Assembly: GCA_030835305.1 (NCBI GenBank)
Contig: JAURPJ010000073.1
Coordinates: 1-41,257 of the forward strand
Length of the DNA: 41,257 nucleotides
Source of the DNA: Verrucomicrobiota bacterium
GTDB taxonomy: Bacteria; Verrucomicrobiota; Verrucomicrobiia; Verrucomicrobiales; Akkermansiaceae
Direction of reading: 5' to 3'
The notes under the pieces are model-generated. The model was not told where the DNA came from. It ran no database searches and was given only the letters and a program-made list of their open reading frames with translations. This document shows positions 5,372 through 33,592 of this stretch, piece by piece. Each line of letters begins with the position of its first letter. The stretch's first letter is position 1. A program made the translations under genes and the position numbers.

Positions 5372-5967
5372 AGCTCCTTAATCACGATCTTGCGATAGCT
5401 TGCCTCAAACGGCGGCCCGCTGTGAGCCTGTAACGCGATGTAGCCCTCCAAAGGAATCGACTCATCCTTCTCAGTATAGTCGCAGGTCAGGATGTCATTG
5501 ACCCAAAGCCGGACCCTCTTTCCTTCGCACCGGATTTTGTAATCGTTCCAACCCTCTCTGGCTGCTTTTGCGGCTTCCTTGGAAACCCAATTTCCCATGA
5601 CCTTGCGACGTCGCGACTCATCGTAAAGCTTCCCCCACCAACCGGGCCCCACATCGGCCTGGTAGCCAATCATCTCGTGGTGATCCTTGATCCGCTCGCT
5701 TCGGATCTGAATACCGGCATTGGGCTTTTCACCCTCAACCTTGACCTGCAGGGTGAGCTCGAAATCCTTGTAACGCTTTTCGGTTGTAATGAAGGTGTTA
5801 TGAGGAACCTTTTTTTCGAGCGAGCCTCCGACAATAGCCCCGGCTTTGACTTTCCACATCCATGCCTCTTTTTCCTGAACCGACCATCCTTTCAAGGTTT
5901 TGCCATCGAAGAGGGACTGACCGGTAGCGAGCGAGGCGCCCAACAAGCACAAAACTAACAATTTCAT
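5368..5967 (-). CDS. Secreted DUF1080 (3-keto-disaccharide hydrolase-type) protein
   Basis: This protein of 199 residues has a signal peptide (MKLLVLCLLGASLATG) followed directly by the family's usual opening, SLFDGKTLKGWS. The rest is a single concanavalin-like beta-sandwich domain: DFELTLQVKVEG, NAGIQIRSE, then EMIGYQADVG and a C-terminal GYIALQAHSG. These are standard DUF1080 (PF06439) landmarks. The family is heavily expanded in Planctomycetes and Verrucomicrobia and acts on carbohydrates outside the cytoplasm; some members hydrolyse 3-keto-glycosides. Substrate and exact activity here are unknown. It is divergent from the cytochrome-tailed dehydrogenase gene across a 103-base gap and convergent with the methyltransferase gene. 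Confidence 0.88.
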   Translation of the reverse strand: MKLLVLCLLGASLATGQSLFDGKTLKGWSVQEKEAWMWKVKAGAIVGGSLEKKVPHNTFITTEKRYKDFELTLQVKVEGEKPNAGIQIRSERIKDHHEMIGYQADVGPGWWGKLYDESRRRKVMGNWVSKEAAKAAREGWNDYKIRCEGKRVRLWVNDILTCDYTEKDESIPLEGYIALQAHSGPPFEASYRKIVIKEL

Positions 5968-6070
5968 TCCTGATTATCGGGCAATCCGGAGCCTGGGTCG
6001 ATCTCCAAAGCCACGGTTTTTCGTCATTTTTTCGTTAGTAATCGCCGCTACAGCGAGTATTTGTCGGCGT

Positions 6071-8392
6071 ATGAAGCACTGCGCAATTGGAATCTCAGTT
6101 GGCCTACTTGGTCTTTCCTCTGCCATCGCCCAGAACGGCGATCGGAAGGGACACGATAAAATGGGCAAAGTTGTCCCCGAGGAATTGATCCCCGCCGCTC
6201 CCGTGCTGAGTGTCGACGAAGCACTCAAAACTTTCACCATCGAGAAGGGATTCGTGATCGAGCCTGTTGCTGCAGAGCCTCTTGTCGACAAGCCGGTCGC
6301 CTTGACCTTCGATCCCTCCGGTCGGATGTGGGTTTGCGAAATGCGCGGCTACATGCCCGACATTGACGGCAAGCTCGAGGACAAACCCACCGGTCGGATT
6401 GCCATTTTGGAAGATACCAATGGCGACGGCAAGGCCGACAAACGGACCACTTTCCTCGACAACATCGTTCTCCCCCGTGCCATTTCCCTCGTTCCCGGCG
6501 GGATTCTTTACGGGGATCAAAACAACCTCTATTTCGTCGCACGTGACGGAGACAAACCCAAGGGTGAAGCTGTGGTTCTCGATAACAAGTTTGCTCCCGG
6601 CGGCAACGTCGAACACAAAACCAACGGGCTCATGTCCGGCATTGATAACTGGCTCTATAACGCCAAATCAAACGCCCGCTACAAATTCATCCCCGGCGAA
6701 AACAAAGTTCTCAAGGAGTCCACCGCTTTCCGAGGACAGTGGGGCATCACCCGCGACAACTTCGGGCGCCTTTTCCACAACTCAAACAGTACCCTCCTCA
6801 TCGGGGATCGGGTTCTGCCCAACCTTCTTGATGGAAACAAGTCGGTCAAGATCAAGGCCAAGACCACCGAGCGGGTTGGATCCAATGCGGTCTTCCCGGG
6901 TCGCGTCACTCCCGGCCTGAACCGCGCCTACATCTCCTCGCACAACGGCTACGGATCAAACACCATCGACCCAAAGACCTTCAAACTCACCAACGCGACC
7001 GGCGCTTGCGGCCCGGTCATTTACCGTGGCAACAACTTCCCTGAATCGGTCAACGGGAACGCCTTCGTCTGCGAGTCGGCTGCCCAACTCGTCAAAATGA
7101 TTGGCATTGAAGCCAAGGACGGAAATCTCAAAGGGTCCCACCCACTCCAAAAGCGCGATTTCCTGACGTCGACCGACGAGCGCTTCCGTCCGGTAAACAT
7201 CTACAACGCACCGGATGGGTCTCTTTACCTTTTGGACATGTATCACGGCATCATTCAGCACAAGACCTACATGACCACCTATCTGCGCGAGCAGACCTTG
7301 AGCCGGGGACTGGAAGGACCGGGCTACGGACACGGCCGGATCTATCGGATCCGCTCAGCCAACAAGCCTCTCGCAACGGTTGCGGATCTCTCAAAAGCCT
7401 CTGAGACGCAACTCATCAAGAATTTGGACAGCCCCATCGGAGCCGTTCGCGACCTTGTTCAAAAGGAACTTATCGATCGCAGGGCCGATCCCAAGCCCAT
7501 CATCGCAGCCCTCGCCACCGGCGCAGCGAAGGATCTGACCCATATTCATTTGATCTGGACGCTGGAAGGCCTCGGCGCTTTGAAGGCCGAGCACCTTGTC
7601 GGGGCACTCGCTTCCAAAAACGAGGAGCTTGTTTCAAGTGCTCTCTACGCAGCGCTCTCATTGCCCGACAACGAATTGATCAAGCTGGCATCATCGGCGG
7701 CAGAGGCAAAGGCCACCGCAATGACAGCTCCCTACAAAGCCCGGGTTCTTGCGGCAACCCCCAGCCCTGTTGCACACGAGGCTCTGGTTGCACTTCTTGA
7801 AAAGCACCACAAGGTCTCACTCGTTCGTGAGGCCGCCATCTCCGGACTTGGCCGAACCGCCGTTCTCTTCGACAAGGTGAACAAAGGTCGCTTTAGCGAG
7901 AAGGGCTTCGACAAGTGGCTCGACGAATCCAAGCGTGGCCCCCAGAAGCAGATTGATCCCAGCACCCTCCTCAAAGGAGAGCACCTCGCCTCATTCAAAC
8001 GCGGCGAGAAGCTTTACAGCACCACCGCAGCTTGCATTGGTTGCCACGGACAGGACGGTGGCGGACTCGACAACCTCGGACCACAGCTCGACGGGTCCGA
8101 CTGGGTCACCGGAAGCGAGGAGCGTCTTGTTAAAATCCTCCTTCACGGACTGACCGGCCCCATCATGGTCAATGGTAAGAAGTTTACCCCGCAGGCCTTT
8201 ATGCCCGGGCTCGGAGTGAACCCAACGATCAAGGATGGAGATATTGCAGATATCTCTACCTTCATCCGGGCCAACTGGACCAACCGCGCGCCCCAAGTCA
8301 CCAAGCCCACCGTCTCCAGAATCCGAAAGGCAACCTCCGACCGCTCCGCCGGCCAGATGTATTCCCAACAGGATTTCCCGATTAAAAGGTAG
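6071..8392 (+). CDS. Secreted PVC-type dehydrogenase-HEAT-cytochrome c protein
   Basis: This protein of 773 residues has a signal peptide (about residues 1-20). Residues of about 45-430 form a beta-propeller related to soluble PQQ-type sugar dehydrogenases (FDPSGRMWVCEMRGY, LEDTNGDGKADKRT, NGLMSGIDNWLYNAKSN, YLLDMYHGIIQHKTYMTTYL). This is the 'membrane-bound dehydrogenase' N-terminal domain seen in Pirellula and Verrucomicrobium (TIGR02604-like). A HEAT-like helical stretch follows (about 445-620). The C-terminus is a class I cytochrome c with C655-I-G-C658-H659 as haem site and a likely distal ligand in the AFMPGLG region. It probably oxidises a sugar or polyol in the periplasm and passes electrons to its own haem. 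It ends at a strong terminator. Confidence 0.9.
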   Translation: MKHCAIGISVGLLGLSSAIAQNGDRKGHDKMGKVVPEELIPAAPVLSVDEALKTFTIEKGFVIEPVAAEPLVDKPVALTFDPSGRMWVCEMRGYMPDIDGKLEDKPTGRIAILEDTNGDGKADKRTTFLDNIVLPRAISLVPGGILYGDQNNLYFVARDGDKPKGEAVVLDNKFAPGGNVEHKTNGLMSGIDNWLYNAKSNARYKFIPGENKVLKESTAFRGQWGITRDNFGRLFHNSNSTLLIGDRVLPNLLDGNKSVKIKAKTTERVGSNAVFPGRVTPGLNRAYISSHNGYGSNTIDPKTFKLTNATGACGPVIYRGNNFPESVNGNAFVCESAAQLVKMIGIEAKDGNLKGSHPLQKRDFLTSTDERFRPVNIYNAPDGSLYLLDMYHGIIQHKTYMTTYLREQTLSRGLEGPGYGHGRIYRIRSANKPLATVADLSKASETQLIKNLDSPIGAVRDLVQKELIDRRADPKPIIAALATGAAKDLTHIHLIWTLEGLGALKAEHLVGALASKNEELVSSALYAALSLPDNELIKLASSAAEAKATAMTAPYKARVLAATPSPVAHEALVALLEKHHKVSLVREAAISGLGRTAVLFDKVNKGRFSEKGFDKWLDESKRGPQKQIDPSTLLKGEHLASFKRGEKLYSTTAACIGCHGQDGGGLDNLGPQLDGSDWVTGSEERLVKILLHGLTGPIMVNGKKFTPQAFMPGLGVNPTIKDGDIADISTFIRANWTNRAPQVTKPTVSRIRKATSDRSAGQMYSQQDFPIKR

Positions 8393-28920: not shown

Positions 28921-29706
28921 ATGAAAAAACTGAGGCGGCTTTTCATTTTCCTCATTCTGGCAGGCAGCGCCTACGCGGGGTGGGTTTACCGTGATCCGCT
29001 TCTCAACTTTTACCAGCAGCACTTCACCCGGGAACCGCCTGCCCGGGAAATTCCCAAGCCGGATCCCGAGCGCTACCAGCAACTCATTTCCGAACTGGAA
29101 GGAAGGCGCCTCGATCTCGCCAAACAATATTCCCGGGCCCGCACCGCCCGTGAAATTTCAGATGTTGTCACCGAAAGCCAACGCACCCTCGAGGAACTGC
29201 TCCCGGAGATGATGCGCTGTTGGCTGGGAACGCCCTGGGACTTTAATGGCATCTGCCAAACTCCGGGTTCCGGAAAGATTGCCTGCGGATATTTTGTCTC
29301 CACCATCCTTCGCGATGCCGGATTTGAGGTCGAGCGTATCCGCCTGGCCCAGCAACCCTCGCAACGAATCATCGGCACCTTCATGCCCAACAAAATGATG
29401 ACCATTCGAGCCGGTCAAAACTACGACACCTTCGTCGACGAAGCCAGGGAGCGGGGCCCGGGCATCCACATCGTCGGCCTCGACAACCACGTCGCCTTTC
29501 TGGTTATTCCCGAATCCGGCGGCATTCGCTTCATCCACTCATCCGGAGCCCATCCCTATTGTGTCGTCGATGAAGATCGCAAAAATGCCGGAAGTCTTCA
29601 ACGGTCCAACTATCGTGTCATCGGCAACCTCACTAGTAACCCCGAGGTCATCCACGGTTGGCTTGTCGGCCAGAAATGGCCCACCAGAATTTCCGGCGGC
29701 AACTAG
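28921..29706 (+). CDS. Exported or membrane-anchored putative cysteine peptidase (NlpC/P60-like)
   Basis: This 261-residue protein has an N-terminal hydrophobic anchor (about residues 6-22) and a helical region (45-95). The second half has text expected of a papain-like NlpC/P60-type fold. WLGTPWDFNGICQ comes before a putative catalytic Cys in KIAC122GYFVSTILRDAGF, and a His follows in VGLDNH190VAFLVI with an aromatic-hydrophobic strand after it. A further FIHSSGAHPYCVVDE could supply the third residue. It is not a canonical NlpC/P60 member; this is a fold-level guess. Its TAG stop shares a CTAG palindrome with the convergent TPR gene. It lies 34 bases after the TonB receptor gene and may be co-transcribed with it. 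Confidence 0.6.
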   Translation: MKKLRRLFIFLILAGSAYAGWVYRDPLLNFYQQHFTREPPAREIPKPDPERYQQLISELEGRRLDLAKQYSRARTAREISDVVTESQRTLEELLPEMMRCWLGTPWDFNGICQTPGSGKIACGYFVSTILRDAGFEVERIRLAQQPSQRIIGTFMPNKMMTIRAGQNYDTFVDEARERGPGIHIVGLDNHVAFLVIPESGGIRFIHSSGAHPYCVVDEDRKNAGSLQRSNYRVIGNLTSNPEVIHGWLVGQKWPTRISGGN

Positions 29707-30628: not shown

Positions 30629-31156
30629 TCACTTTTGGGGAAGAAGTTCGAGGCAATGATCTCTTGTTTTTGGAAGCTTGCCATAAACTTGCAAAATTCC
30701 AAGGTGTGCCCCTTTCCCAAGCCCCAGCATCCGGGCCACTTCGCTCTCAAAGTGAAACAGGGCCCGGCGACTGGCCCCCGCCTCACCCAGATGCCGAAGA
30801 CCGCGCCTTAAAAGATCCCACATCTCCGGCTCCGGATGATCCAGCTCCAGAACCATTTCCAGCAACTGGACAAAATACCCGGCCACCAGCGCATCACGAT
30901 AACTCGTTCTCAGACCTTCCCGATAATCAACCACCGAGACCTCCTTCAGGTGATGGAGTTCCCCCTTTTTACTCCTACCCCACTCGAAATCAGCCTCTAC
31001 AAAAAGATCCAACCTGCCCGCGAACGAGCTTTTCGCCCGTCGCGCTCCCTTCGCCACCGTCTTGATCAACCCCGCTTCCTCGCTCATCCAATGCACAATC
31101 AAGCTGGTATCGGTCAACTTGGTCAGCCGAATGATGGTCCCCCGCCCGCTCTCCAT
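30629..31156 (-). CDS. recO: DNA repair protein RecO, short form
   Basis: This protein of 175 residues has the N-terminal OB fold of RecO (TIIRLTKLTDTSLIVHWMSEE, GLIKTVAKGARRAKSSFAGRLDLF) and the start of the helical domain (SYRDALVAGYFVQLLEMVLE). Typical RecO proteins are 230-250 residues and carry zinc-binding cysteines. Here there is only one Cys (near the C-terminus), and the end is shorter. RecO loads RecA onto gapped DNA with RecR. The shortening appears natural, as the frame ends cleanly and the following TPR gene is intact. The ATG at 31156 fits the family start. Confidence 0.8.
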   Translation of the reverse strand: MESGRGTIIRLTKLTDTSLIVHWMSEEAGLIKTVAKGARRAKSSFAGRLDLFVEADFEWGRSKKGELHHLKEVSVVDYREGLRTSYRDALVAGYFVQLLEMVLELDHPEPEMWDLLRRGLRHLGEAGASRRALFHFESEVARMLGLGKGAHLGILQVYGKLPKTRDHCLELLPQK

Positions 31157-31230: not shown

Positions 31231-32115
31231 GTGCCAGATTCCGCCCAAGCTCAGAAAGACGCCCCGCGCTCGCCTTTTGCGGGCTGCCTGATCCTTATCG
31301 TGATGGCCGTTGTCATCCTCGTCCTCATAAGTTCGGCGGCCTACTTCCTCAAAAAACAGACCGACGCCTACAAAACCTTCACCGATGAAGAAGCCAGGCC
31401 CGCTCCCGTGGCCGACCCAAAAGCCCACGAATCTGAATTCAACTCGCTGGTCAACCGCCTCCGCCATTTCGATCACGAGGTCAATAACGGACGCGCCGCC
31501 GAACTCGCACTTTCCACGCAAGATCTCAACCTCGCAATCGCCCACTTCGATGTCCTCAAAAGCTACCGCGGGCAATTCCACTTCGAAAAAATTACCGGCA
31601 CCAACATCAGCGGCACCATCCACCTCCCCTTCAATTCGACCAGCAAACTCCCCGGCTTCGTGCGCAGCTCCCTCGGTATCGAATCCCGCGAGAACAATCT
31701 CAACGGAACATTCACCGGCACCCCCTTGCTCACCGACGGAAAGCTCATCCTCAACGTCTCCGAAATCACCCCAAGCAAAGGGGAAATCCCGGAAGAACTT
31801 CTCTCAGGAATTTCACGCTTCCTGATATCCGGCGAACTCGAACAAAAGGCCGAAGACGATCCCAAGAACATTCCCGAGCTTCTCAAAACTCTCCGCAAAC
31901 TCACCTCGATCGAACTTCGGGAAGAATCGCTCATTTTTTCCTATACCCCTGATTCAAAGCCACCGAGCGTGAAGGAGGAGTCCGACGCCATGGCCACCAA
32001 AGCCAAGCAATTGGTCGCACTTGGAGCCGTCATTTTCATCCTCACGATGATCCTTTTCTTCATTTTGATGAGCCGGCGACAAAAGGCAAAGCGGGCCGCC
32101 GCCCAATCCTCCTGA
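31231..32115 (+). CDS. Two-TM protein of unknown function next to an exported ClpP-like protease
   Basis: This 294-residue protein starts with a GTG (31231). A TM segment lies at about residues 17-40 and a second near the C-terminus (about 260-282), followed by a short basic tail (SRRQKAKRAAAQSS). The roughly 220 residues between are probably outside the cytoplasm. They include a beta-rich part (HFEKITGTNISGTIHLPFN) and helices. No family was recognised. It is 49 bases upstream of the ClpP-like gene on the same strand, suggesting an operon and possibly a membrane partner for that protease. This is inference from position only. Confidence 0.6.
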   Translation: MPDSAQAQKDAPRSPFAGCLILIVMAVVILVLISSAAYFLKKQTDAYKTFTDEEARPAPVADPKAHESEFNSLVNRLRHFDHEVNNGRAAELALSTQDLNLAIAHFDVLKSYRGQFHFEKITGTNISGTIHLPFNSTSKLPGFVRSSLGIESRENNLNGTFTGTPLLTDGKLILNVSEITPSKGEIPEELLSGISRFLISGELEQKAEDDPKNIPELLKTLRKLTSIELREESLIFSYTPDSKPPSVKEESDAMATKAKQLVALGAVIFILTMILFFILMSRRQKAKRAAAQSS

Positions 32116-32164
32116 TTCCTGGAAAAAGATTGATAACCCGCCCTTCCGGTGTCGTTATCTTTGC

Positions 32165-33592
32165 ATGCTGAAAACCAGTCTAATTCTGGCAGCTGCGCTC
32201 ACTCTCGCAGCAGTTGCCGACCCAGCCGACAAGCCCGCCGAAACTGCCAAGCCCGCAGCCGGGGAAACCGCCAAGCCTCCTAAAAAAGAAAAGAAGGCCG
32301 AAGATAAGAAAAAAGAGCAGAAAAAGGAAAAGGCAAAGGCCCGCCCAAAGAAGGAGGAAGCCAAGCCCACCCCTCCGGCCGAGACCAAACCCGCTGAGAA
32401 AACGGAAAAGCCAGCCGAGCCAAAATCCGAACCTAAAAGCAAAGAAGACAAGGAACTCGCCAAGGCGAAAGCCGAAACCGAGCGTCTGACCATTCTCAAT
32501 GCTCTCGCCGCCGAGCAATCAAAGCACGAAACCGTCGAACTCCGCTCCGAAATCGCCCGCCTCAAGCTCGAAAAGGAACTCCTGACCGAGAAAATCGCGT
32601 TTGCCGCCGCCAAGCAGGACTCGAAAAAGACCGACGTTATCGCCAAGTTCATGGTCGAGAAAGAGGAGCTGACCCGCGAGGCCACGCTCGCCAAATTGGA
32701 AGCCGAGAAACTTTCATTCGAACTCAAAACCCTCCAAACCGAGTCAACCATGAAAACTTCCGAGCTCATGGCGGAGATCAGCGAAATCGAGATCCAGAGC
32801 AAGCGCGACGACTACGCCAACGCAGAGCCCCTCTATCTCGACAATCCACTCAAGAAAGATGGCACTCTCGTCATCTCCGACCGCCGTATCCCCTTCAATG
32901 GGCCTGTCACCGGAGCTCTCGCCGACCGCGTCACCACACGCATCAATTACTTCAACAACAAGGACCCCAAGAAGCCCATCTTCATCGTCATTGATGATTC
33001 CCCGGGTGGCTCCGTCATGGCTGGGTATCGCATCCTCAAAGCCATGGAAGGATCCGAAGCTCCTGTCTACGTGGTTGTTAAATCCTTTGCCGCCTCCATG
33101 GCCGCCACCATTACCACCCTGGCCAAGAAGTCATTCGTCTATCCGAATGCCATCATTCTCCACCACCAAATCAGCCAGAGCTTCATGTTCTCCAGCATGA
33201 ACCTCACCGAGCAAAAAGAGAACGTGGAAGACCTCAAAAAATGGTGGGCCCGCCTTGCCGACCCTATTGCTGAAAAAATGGGGATTACCTCTGATGAGTT
33301 CATCGAAATGATGTATGAAAAAACGGTCTCCGGCGATTGGACCGAGTTTGGTGACGATGCCGTGAAACTCAAATGGGCAGACCACATCGTCAGCCGAATT
33401 CATGAGACTGCGCTTCTCAAGAACCCCGACGCCAAAACCGTGGTTCCCACCACCACTCGCAGCGCAGCCATCGAGAACGGCCTCACTCCGGCGGTCGACG
33501 ACAACGGAAATCCATACATGATTCTCCCACGTCGTAATCCGAAGGATCTGTATCTCATGCATAATCCCGACGGATTCTACCGCTTCAAGTAA
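32165..33592 (+). CDS. Exported ClpP-fold serine protease with charged coiled-coil N-terminus
   Basis: This 475-residue protein has a signal peptide-like start (MLKTSLILAAALTLAAVAD). A Lys/Pro/Ala/Glu-rich low-complexity stretch follows (about residues 20-105), then a long coiled coil (about 108-220). The C-terminal half is a ClpP/crotonase-like protease: IDDSPGGSVMAGYRIL (oxyanion region), nucleophile S311 in SFAAS311MAATI, and the catalytic His (H334) in IILHHQIS 23 residues later. DWTEFGDDAVKLKWAD is the likely Asp region. Cytosolic ClpP has about 200 residues and works with ClpX/ClpA; here export would separate it from AAA+ partners. It ends at a terminator. It may be a periplasmic oligomeric protease. 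Confidence 0.8.
   Translation: MLKTSLILAAALTLAAVADPADKPAETAKPAAGETAKPPKKEKKAEDKKKEQKKEKAKARPKKEEAKPTPPAETKPAEKTEKPAEPKSEPKSKEDKELAKAKAETERLTILNALAAEQSKHETVELRSEIARLKLEKELLTEKIAFAAAKQDSKKTDVIAKFMVEKEELTREATLAKLEAEKLSFELKTLQTESTMKTSELMAEISEIEIQSKRDDYANAEPLYLDNPLKKDGTLVISDRRIPFNGPVTGALADRVTTRINYFNNKDPKKPIFIVIDDSPGGSVMAGYRILKAMEGSEAPVYVVVKSFAASMAATITTLAKKSFVYPNAIILHHQISQSFMFSSMNLTEQKENVEDLKKWWARLADPIAEKMGITSDEFIEMMYEKTVSGDWTEFGDDAVKLKWADHIVSRIHETALLKNPDAKTVVPTTTRSAAIENGLTPAVDDNGNPYMILPRRNPKDLYLMHNPDGFYRFK

Follow-up and report, generated by a model that had tools for sequence, protein, structure and literature searches.

A predicted exported, ClpP-like serine peptidase of Verrucomicrobiota with altered docking-pocket positions

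Overview of gene B

The window analyzed here is a DNA stretch of 41,257 nucleotides (positions 1 to 41,257 of contig JAURPJ010000073.1, assembly GCA_030835305.1) from a bacterium of the phylum Verrucomicrobiota (order Verrucomicrobiales, family Akkermansiaceae). It carries two neighboring open reading frames (ORFs) of the plus strand, which are separated by 49 nt in the ORF list: gene A (31231..32115; GTG start), encoding a 294-amino-acid membrane protein with a predicted TULIP-like outer domain, and gene B (32165..33592; ATG start), encoding a protein of 475 amino acids. In our reading of the sequence comparisons and structural models, B is probably, though by no means certainly, an active, exported, motor-independent serine peptidase derived from ClpP. 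An initial annotation had described both ORFs, which were recovered in the ORF list, and had interpreted them as an exported ClpP-fold protease paired with a membrane protein of the envelope; its observations were confirmed in part and its interpretation is partly supported.

ClpP is the textbook example of a protease in which an ATP-driven unfoldase governs substrate access and specificity, and B is best read as resembling the ClpP peptidase core minus the motor. B is not the housekeeping ClpP, because a separate, canonical ClpP (C85, 261.4 bits) is encoded elsewhere in the same genome. Strictly speaking, it does not qualify as a ClpP proteolytic subunit either, since it lacks key docking residues, the ring-ring arginine and, by prediction, a cytoplasmic start, and stays below the curated cut-offs. 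A conserved exported ClpP branch, with the catalytic core kept and the docking site rewritten, would constitute a natural experiment on motor-free ClpP and, if the reading is true, a new type of quality-control protease in the cell envelope of a phylum that is large and has been little studied.

Fold and catalytic triad

The protease domain of B (residues 234-414; 32864..33406) is predicted to have the ClpP fold. The Pfam model PF00574 (CLP_protease; MEROPS family S14) matched B with 68.6 bits (cut-off 20.2, E 8.4e-19), and the comparison of the structural model with known structures gave a Foldseek probability of 1.00 and a VIA Z score of 22.7 (root-mean-square deviation, rmsd, 3.7; 174 residues aligned). 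All 50 structural rows shown for the domain, in Foldseek and VIA alike, are ClpP.

The three ClpP-type motifs named in the initial annotation were found in B, i.e., SPGG at residues 279-282, SFAAS311M, and HHQ at residues 333-335. The codons of the predicted catalytic residues Ser311 (33095..33097), His334 (33164..33166) and Asp391 (33335..33337) were re-read in the sequence. In an alignment of 27 B members (the window protein included) with 14 canonical ClpPs (13 from the order and that of Escherichia coli), the triad is in register with canonical ClpP: both Ser311 and His334 are present in 27/27 members, and Asp391 is present in 26/27, with Asn in L032; all three align well with their ClpP counterparts. 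The second B of the L032 genome, L031, retains the aspartate.

The full triad is also kept in 15 further B members, of which four belong to the order of the window and 11 to other parts of the phylum; three tandem pairs are represented among them by both copies. Across the 42 members examined, Ser and His are conserved in 42/42, Asp in 41/42, and Gly281-Gly282 of the SPGG motif in 42/42. This conservation speaks against a role of B as a pseudo-protease, structural or regulatory, that would matter for its helix and tail and not for catalysis; the missing ClpP assembly and docking residues (see below) and the Asp to Asn replacement in L032 would fit such a protein, which we nevertheless regard as very improbable.

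Not all ClpP models recognize B. The NCBIfam ClpP models that matched it all did so below their cut-offs (the best with 60.4 bits vs. 228), and B differs from ClpP in its signal-peptide-like start, its linker and long helix, and its C-terminal tail. B was also compared with other ClpP-fold families. SppA signal peptide peptidases and NfeD-type (STOPP) proteases have a ClpP-like fold and occur outside the cytoplasm, as proposed for B. B might accordingly be a membrane-proximal peptidase acting like these enzymes, with no closed chamber, and sub-threshold matches of B, which were found in other members too, point in this direction: 22 bits for the SppA model TIGR00706 (cut-off 155.45), 24.0 bits for the SDH protease model (cut-off 31.3) and 14.9 bits for NfeD1b_N (cut-off 40; two other members, 20.3 and 20.9 bits). 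None of these cut-offs is reached; B members conserve the His and Asp of the ClpP type, the structural rows shown are all ClpP, and the Pfam scan of B revealed neither a second ClpP-like repeat nor an NfeD domain. We consider this alternative rather improbable.

B also shares a ClpP-like catalytic core with the ClpP-related head maturation proteases of phages, which are not known to have an AAA+ partner or to be exported. Derivation of B from such a protease, subsequently taken over and exported, would be in line with the matches of phrog_94 (E 9.4e-16) and NF045542 (51 bits), which are not far behind ClpP. PF00574, however, scores higher on B, and NF045542 stays below its curated cut-off of 120 bits. 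Moreover, no relative of B was confirmed on viral contigs, none of the 11 phage records with a match (nor any of the 42 plasmid records) covers 80% of the query, and no capsid gene was found among the 17 scanned window proteins (38 ORFs were called in the window). A phage origin of this kind thus appears improbable to us, more so than an SppA-like or NfeD-like mode of action.

A search of the open-access literature found no description of a family like B, whether under exported or periplasmic ClpP or under ClpP-fold relatives with a signal peptide. A "membrane-anchored ClpP" is listed in the surface proteome of Staphylococcus aureus, where ClpP is treated as a moonlighting protein (PMC7023439).

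Docking pocket and ring contacts

Clp ATPases bind ClpP by I/LGF loops that dock in a hydrophobic pocket (PMC11005422, in part). Pocket residues are named there and equated with Y62 and F82 of Bacillus subtilis ClpP, mutants at the pocket residues are reported to show greatly diminished caseinolytic activity and defective binding of acyldepsipeptides (ADEP), and salt bridges at the ring-ring interface are listed as well (PMC11005422, in part). At the Y62 position all 27 aligned B members have Val, in place of the Tyr of 14/14 canonical ClpPs, and at the F82 position they have Gly or Ser (27/27), where canonical ClpP has Phe (13 of 14) or Leu (1 of 14).

The positions of M92, L114, L48, Y60, F112 and L189 we take to be further members of the docking pocket. 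At three of them B again departs from the canonical proteins: Lys or Arg stands at the M92 position (27/27; Ile in 10 and Met in 4 canonical ClpPs), Asn, Asp or Ala at the L48 position (27/27; Leu in 14/14), and Tyr or Phe at the L114 position (27/27; Leu in 14/14). The position of E. coli R170, presumably the arginine of the ring-ring salt bridge, is occupied by Gly in 27/27 B members and by Arg in 14/14 canonical ClpPs.

Because key docking-pocket residues differ in 27/27 members, B is unlikely to receive substrates by the usual AAA+ route, which agrees with the suggestion of the initial annotation that an exported ClpP form would need another one. We infer that AAA+ docking has been lost in B, and such a loss fits its export, since we know of no ATP motor of the Clp type in the periplasm.

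N-terminus, linker, helix and tail

The N-terminus of B resembles a signal peptide. The predicted signal peptide comprises residues 1-18 (32165..32218), with cleavage between AVA and DP, and no start codon precedes the ATG of the window gene in its ORF. Among the aligned members (the window protein included), 27/27 have a hydrophobic core close to the N-terminus, 26/27 have a net positive n-region (in L093 the charge is zero), and in 12/27 (by eye) the first 25 or so residues contain an Ala cleavage site with Asp or Glu behind it. The signal peptide claimed at the outset thus gained support, which is not independent, because the start codons of the non-window members were chosen by a script preferring hydrophobic starts.

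An N-terminal peculiarity was noted in L032 (Sulfurovum, 5929-7266), which has a lipobox-like N-terminus with Cys at the lipobox position.

The signal peptide is followed by a linker of variable length (residues 19-95; 32219..32449), modeled with low confidence, which is rich in Lys, Pro, Ala and Glu: residues 20-95 (76 residues) include 23 Lys, 14 Glu, 13 Pro and 13 Ala, in accordance with the Lys/Pro/Ala-rich stretch described earlier. Residues 96-218 (123 residues; 32450..32818) form a single, long charged helix in the AlphaFold2 model of one chain, with block values of the predicted local distance difference test (pLDDT) of 71-95 from residue 101. In 14 B members the helix is about 89 to 234 residues long (rough cut).

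The helix had been annotated as a coiled coil, a term we dropped. The family profiles showed no peak at 3.5 residues, and none of the 14 single sequences had a period beyond its shuffles (the lowest value was 71/500 shuffles, in L138), while the positive control Lpp gave a 3.5 peak that 0/500 shuffles equaled. The helices of B may still pair irregularly.

As judged from the model, the helix appears to meet the protease domain at the start of the ClpP axial N-terminal loops, and a role as an entrance arm or a tether is therefore plausible. The C-terminal tail (residues 441-475; 33485..33589; block pLDDT 80-87) forms short strands and carries the motif LPRxNPKDxYxxxNPDGYYRxK, with P455, P459, D461 and Y472 invariant in 27 rows. 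The C-terminus of one Streptomyces ClpP lies over its docking cleft when this is empty (PMC11005422, in part). By analogy, one may speculate that the tail of B is a permanent cap over this cleft.

Proposed mode of action

After Sec export and signal peptide cleavage, the subunits of B would assemble via the ClpP domain into a periplasmic ring or chamber, from which the helices would project as arms that may serve to anchor the chamber or to capture unfolded envelope proteins. Substrates, i.e., short peptides or unstructured segments, would enter passively and ATP-free. Gene A, whose predicted product is membrane-anchored, TULIP-like and possibly lipid-binding, is co-located with B in part of the order, and B in general would need no A.

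We regard as unlikely a fuller picture, in which a ring of B carries helices at its axial entrance that replace the AAA+ unfoldase, and in which A serves as the substrate bringer. The helices would then collect unfolded or stalled envelope proteins, like the arms of Skp, and feed them into a self-capped chamber, and in Verrucomicrobiales the TULIP-like A would bring lipidated or membrane-bound substrates to B.

Several points weigh against B as a motor-independent exported peptidase. The Y60 position holds Phe in 27/27 B members, and is thus nearer to E. coli than are the ClpPs of the order (His, Asn or Ser), and the F112 and L189 positions hold Phe or Tyr and Val or Ile, respectively; part of the pocket is thus still hydrophobic, and the docking loss has the standing of an inference. 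Having lost the ring-ring Arg, B could fail to form a ClpP-like tetradecamer, and the helix, having no heptad signal, gives no indication in its sequence of a bundle of arms. The signal peptides were judged by simple sequence features and are predictions, with starts partly selected for hydrophobicity, and one member (L032) combines Asn at the catalytic Asp position with a lipobox-like N-terminus. The oligomer, activity, location and substrate of B are all predictions.

Distribution and history of gene B

Gene B was found (E below 1e-90) in 34 of 58 relatives, the genome of the window counted; the other 24 gave weaker matches, mostly to canonical ClpP. In a phylum sample of genomes at least 80% complete, in which many members of the family belong to one genus (g3) carrying neither A nor B, B was present in 33 of 387 Verrucomicrobiota genomes and 17 of 197 genera (E 1e-25).

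Two adjacent B genes occur in 6/6 B-bearing genomes of the family f13, and also in G325. Such tandem paralogs (L139, L146 and L125) both have full triads, and could form hetero-oligomers by analogy with ClpP1P2.

Outside the phylum, B was found in records labeled Thiotrichaceae (one contig of 4.8 kb) and Campylobacteraceae (two), and at two loci of a single genome labeled Sulfurovum. Binning errors are a possible source of these labels, and are least excludable for the 4.8 kb Thiotrichaceae contig. Among 298 sampled genomes of the phylum of Sulfurovum, only that Sulfurovum genome carries B. In a tree of 43 rows (with the ClpP of the same genome as outgroup, on a very long branch, and the partial L028 excluded here and from alignment A1), the four rows from Campylobacterota metagenome-assembled genomes (L029, L030, L031 and L032) form one clade (100/100). 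This clade is nested in a group of 22 rows (99/97), the remaining 18 of which belong to Akkermansiaceae. This nesting indicates transfer from Verrucomicrobiota, and the Campylobacterota genes were apparently acquired from that phylum horizontally.

Fold and family of A

Gene A likely encodes a membrane-anchored protein with a lipid-binding-like (TULIP-like) domain, a prediction that rests on its structural model (mean pLDDT 87.4). The model shows an N-terminal hydrophobic helix (residues 15-50; 31273..31380), a mixed alpha/beta outer domain (residues 61-243; 31411..31959) and a C-terminal hydrophobic helix (residues 248-293; 31972..32109). Foldseek placed E. coli YceB at ranks 1-2 (E 9.3e-4 and probability 0.90 for the first), followed by a phage tail entry and LBP at ranks three and four. 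The VIA comparison of the domain gave YceB (Z 6.5, 128 residues, rmsd 4.5), CETP (5.6), BPI (5.0 and 3.9), OrfX1-OrfX3 (4.5), OrfX2 (4.2), P47 (3.9), LBP (3.8) and thioesterases (about 3), of which CETP and OrfX1-OrfX3 are presumably of the TULIP type. The rows with Z of at least 3.8 match the domain and not a terminal helix alone, and the best among them are of the TULIP type, although Z values below 8 are no proof; two long-helix entries spanning the whole model with rmsd >35 were set aside.

YceB, P47, OrfX2, BPI and LBP are TULIPs, and TULIP domains have been assigned to DUF2140 and DUF2993 (PMC6791001, in part). A may resemble the TULIP proteins YceB (DUF1439), DUF2140/YpmS and LmeA/DUF2993 in its predicted domain fold and membrane anchoring, and is unlike them in passing no family cut-off and in having, in 12 of the 22 aligned members, the extra C-terminal hydrophobic helix, which is missing in the other 10 (by eye).

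No Pfam or NCBIfam model reached its cut-off on A, and the strongest matches lie at the hydrophobic helices (the FliL model PRK05696, 24.8 vs. 179 bits; DUF4446 in 4/22 members, best E 1.5e-5). LmeA and DUF2140 each matched 1/22 members below the Pfam cut-off (E 0.0057 and 0.015, respectively), hhalign aligned A only weakly when E. coli YceB was the sole partner (probability 10.2, E 0.0031), and the profile of A had a single match among PDB sequences (E 0.42). DUF2140 was absent from the genome of the window at E 0.001, with positive controls. The initial annotation had described A as a protein with two transmembrane segments and a large external domain of unknown fold; the latter is now corrected to weakly TULIP-like, and the second segment holds for 12/22 members.

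Residues 18-19 of A (31282-31287), at the start of the first hydrophobic helix, are an invariant Gly-Cys pair (22/22), which does not occupy the usual lipobox position.

Pairing of A and B

The two genes might constitute one dedicated envelope protease system, in which A would recruit lipidated or membrane substrates or anchor B, and B would cut. This was the partnership proposed in the initial annotation, and we find it doubtful. In its favor, A and B lie on the same strand and, in the genus of the window, 32 to about 70 nt apart (mostly about 50). They are adjacent in 19 of the 21 own-genus genomes with both genes; in the remaining two, a contig end splits them (G025) or they lie apart (G024). 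Within the order, all 18 B-bearing sampled genomes have A, and in 11 of them B directly follows A on the same strand (G000, G032, G052, G266, G292, G300, G303, G325, G355, G367 and G375), an adjacency that holds while the outer flanks vary between genera. A simple gene caller missed A or B at L123, L145, L149, L153 and L162; the adjacency counts were taken from search coordinates.

Against the system stands the occurrence of either gene without the other. A and B are separated by one gene in G042 and lie elsewhere in the genome in 6/18 B-bearing genomes of the order. A was found in 57/387 genomes of the phylum sample, 39 of which have no B. Profiles derived from the order detected no A in 15/15 sampled B-bearing genomes outside the order (E 0.001) and in 4/4 B-bearing genomes with non-verrucomicrobial labels (E 0.01); a diverged A could be missed, because the profile was built from the order itself. 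As far as the latter four genomes show, B is kept without A outside the phylum. Among the 58 relatives, a single-protein query found no A in the B-bearing G015, G020 and G030, with B at a contig end in G015 and G020. Furthermore, in several genomes a gene for MnmA (identified by eye) adjoins A irrespective of the presence of B, so that the linkage is largely explicable by old gene order. Neighborhood is thus conserved in the genus and much of the order, and not beyond, and A would be at most a lineage-specific partner of B.

Gene B also appears to have its own promoter-like element, TTGATA-N17-CGTTAT (32130..32158), whose end lies 6 nt 5' of the ATG. A similar site is the best one in 10/16 own-genus rows and in L061, and is not general among the 48 rows. 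Patterns made from the site itself have one match in the window (0.04 expected) and one in the genome. The standard promoter scan, in which the second hexamer must have A as its second base, omits the element. These data hint at transcription of B on its own, from a near-leaderless mRNA, which also speaks against a dedicated A-B system.

Genomic setting

The genome carrying the window is 4.45 Mb in size (133 contigs), and its close named relatives are mostly metagenome-assembled genomes of Akkermansiaceae and other Verrucomicrobiales. The defence-system models gave no match. The genes recurring near A and B, named by eye from the sequence, encode MnmA, NUDIX, SGNH hydrolase and formylglycine-type proteins, and did not form a constant system across the loci compared.

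In the Pfam scan, aconitase B was identified farther downstream of B on the plus strand, and a RecO ORF (30629-31156; 175 amino acids) upstream of A on the opposite strand; the C-terminal RecO model was matched partially, with 21.1 bits (cut-off 22.1). The 261-amino-acid protein encoded by a further ORF (28921-29706) has a hydrophobic stretch at the N-terminal end, as judged by eye, and matched nothing in Pfam at E 1. In several own-genus loci, this protein stays beside a TonB-dependent receptor upstream of RecO.

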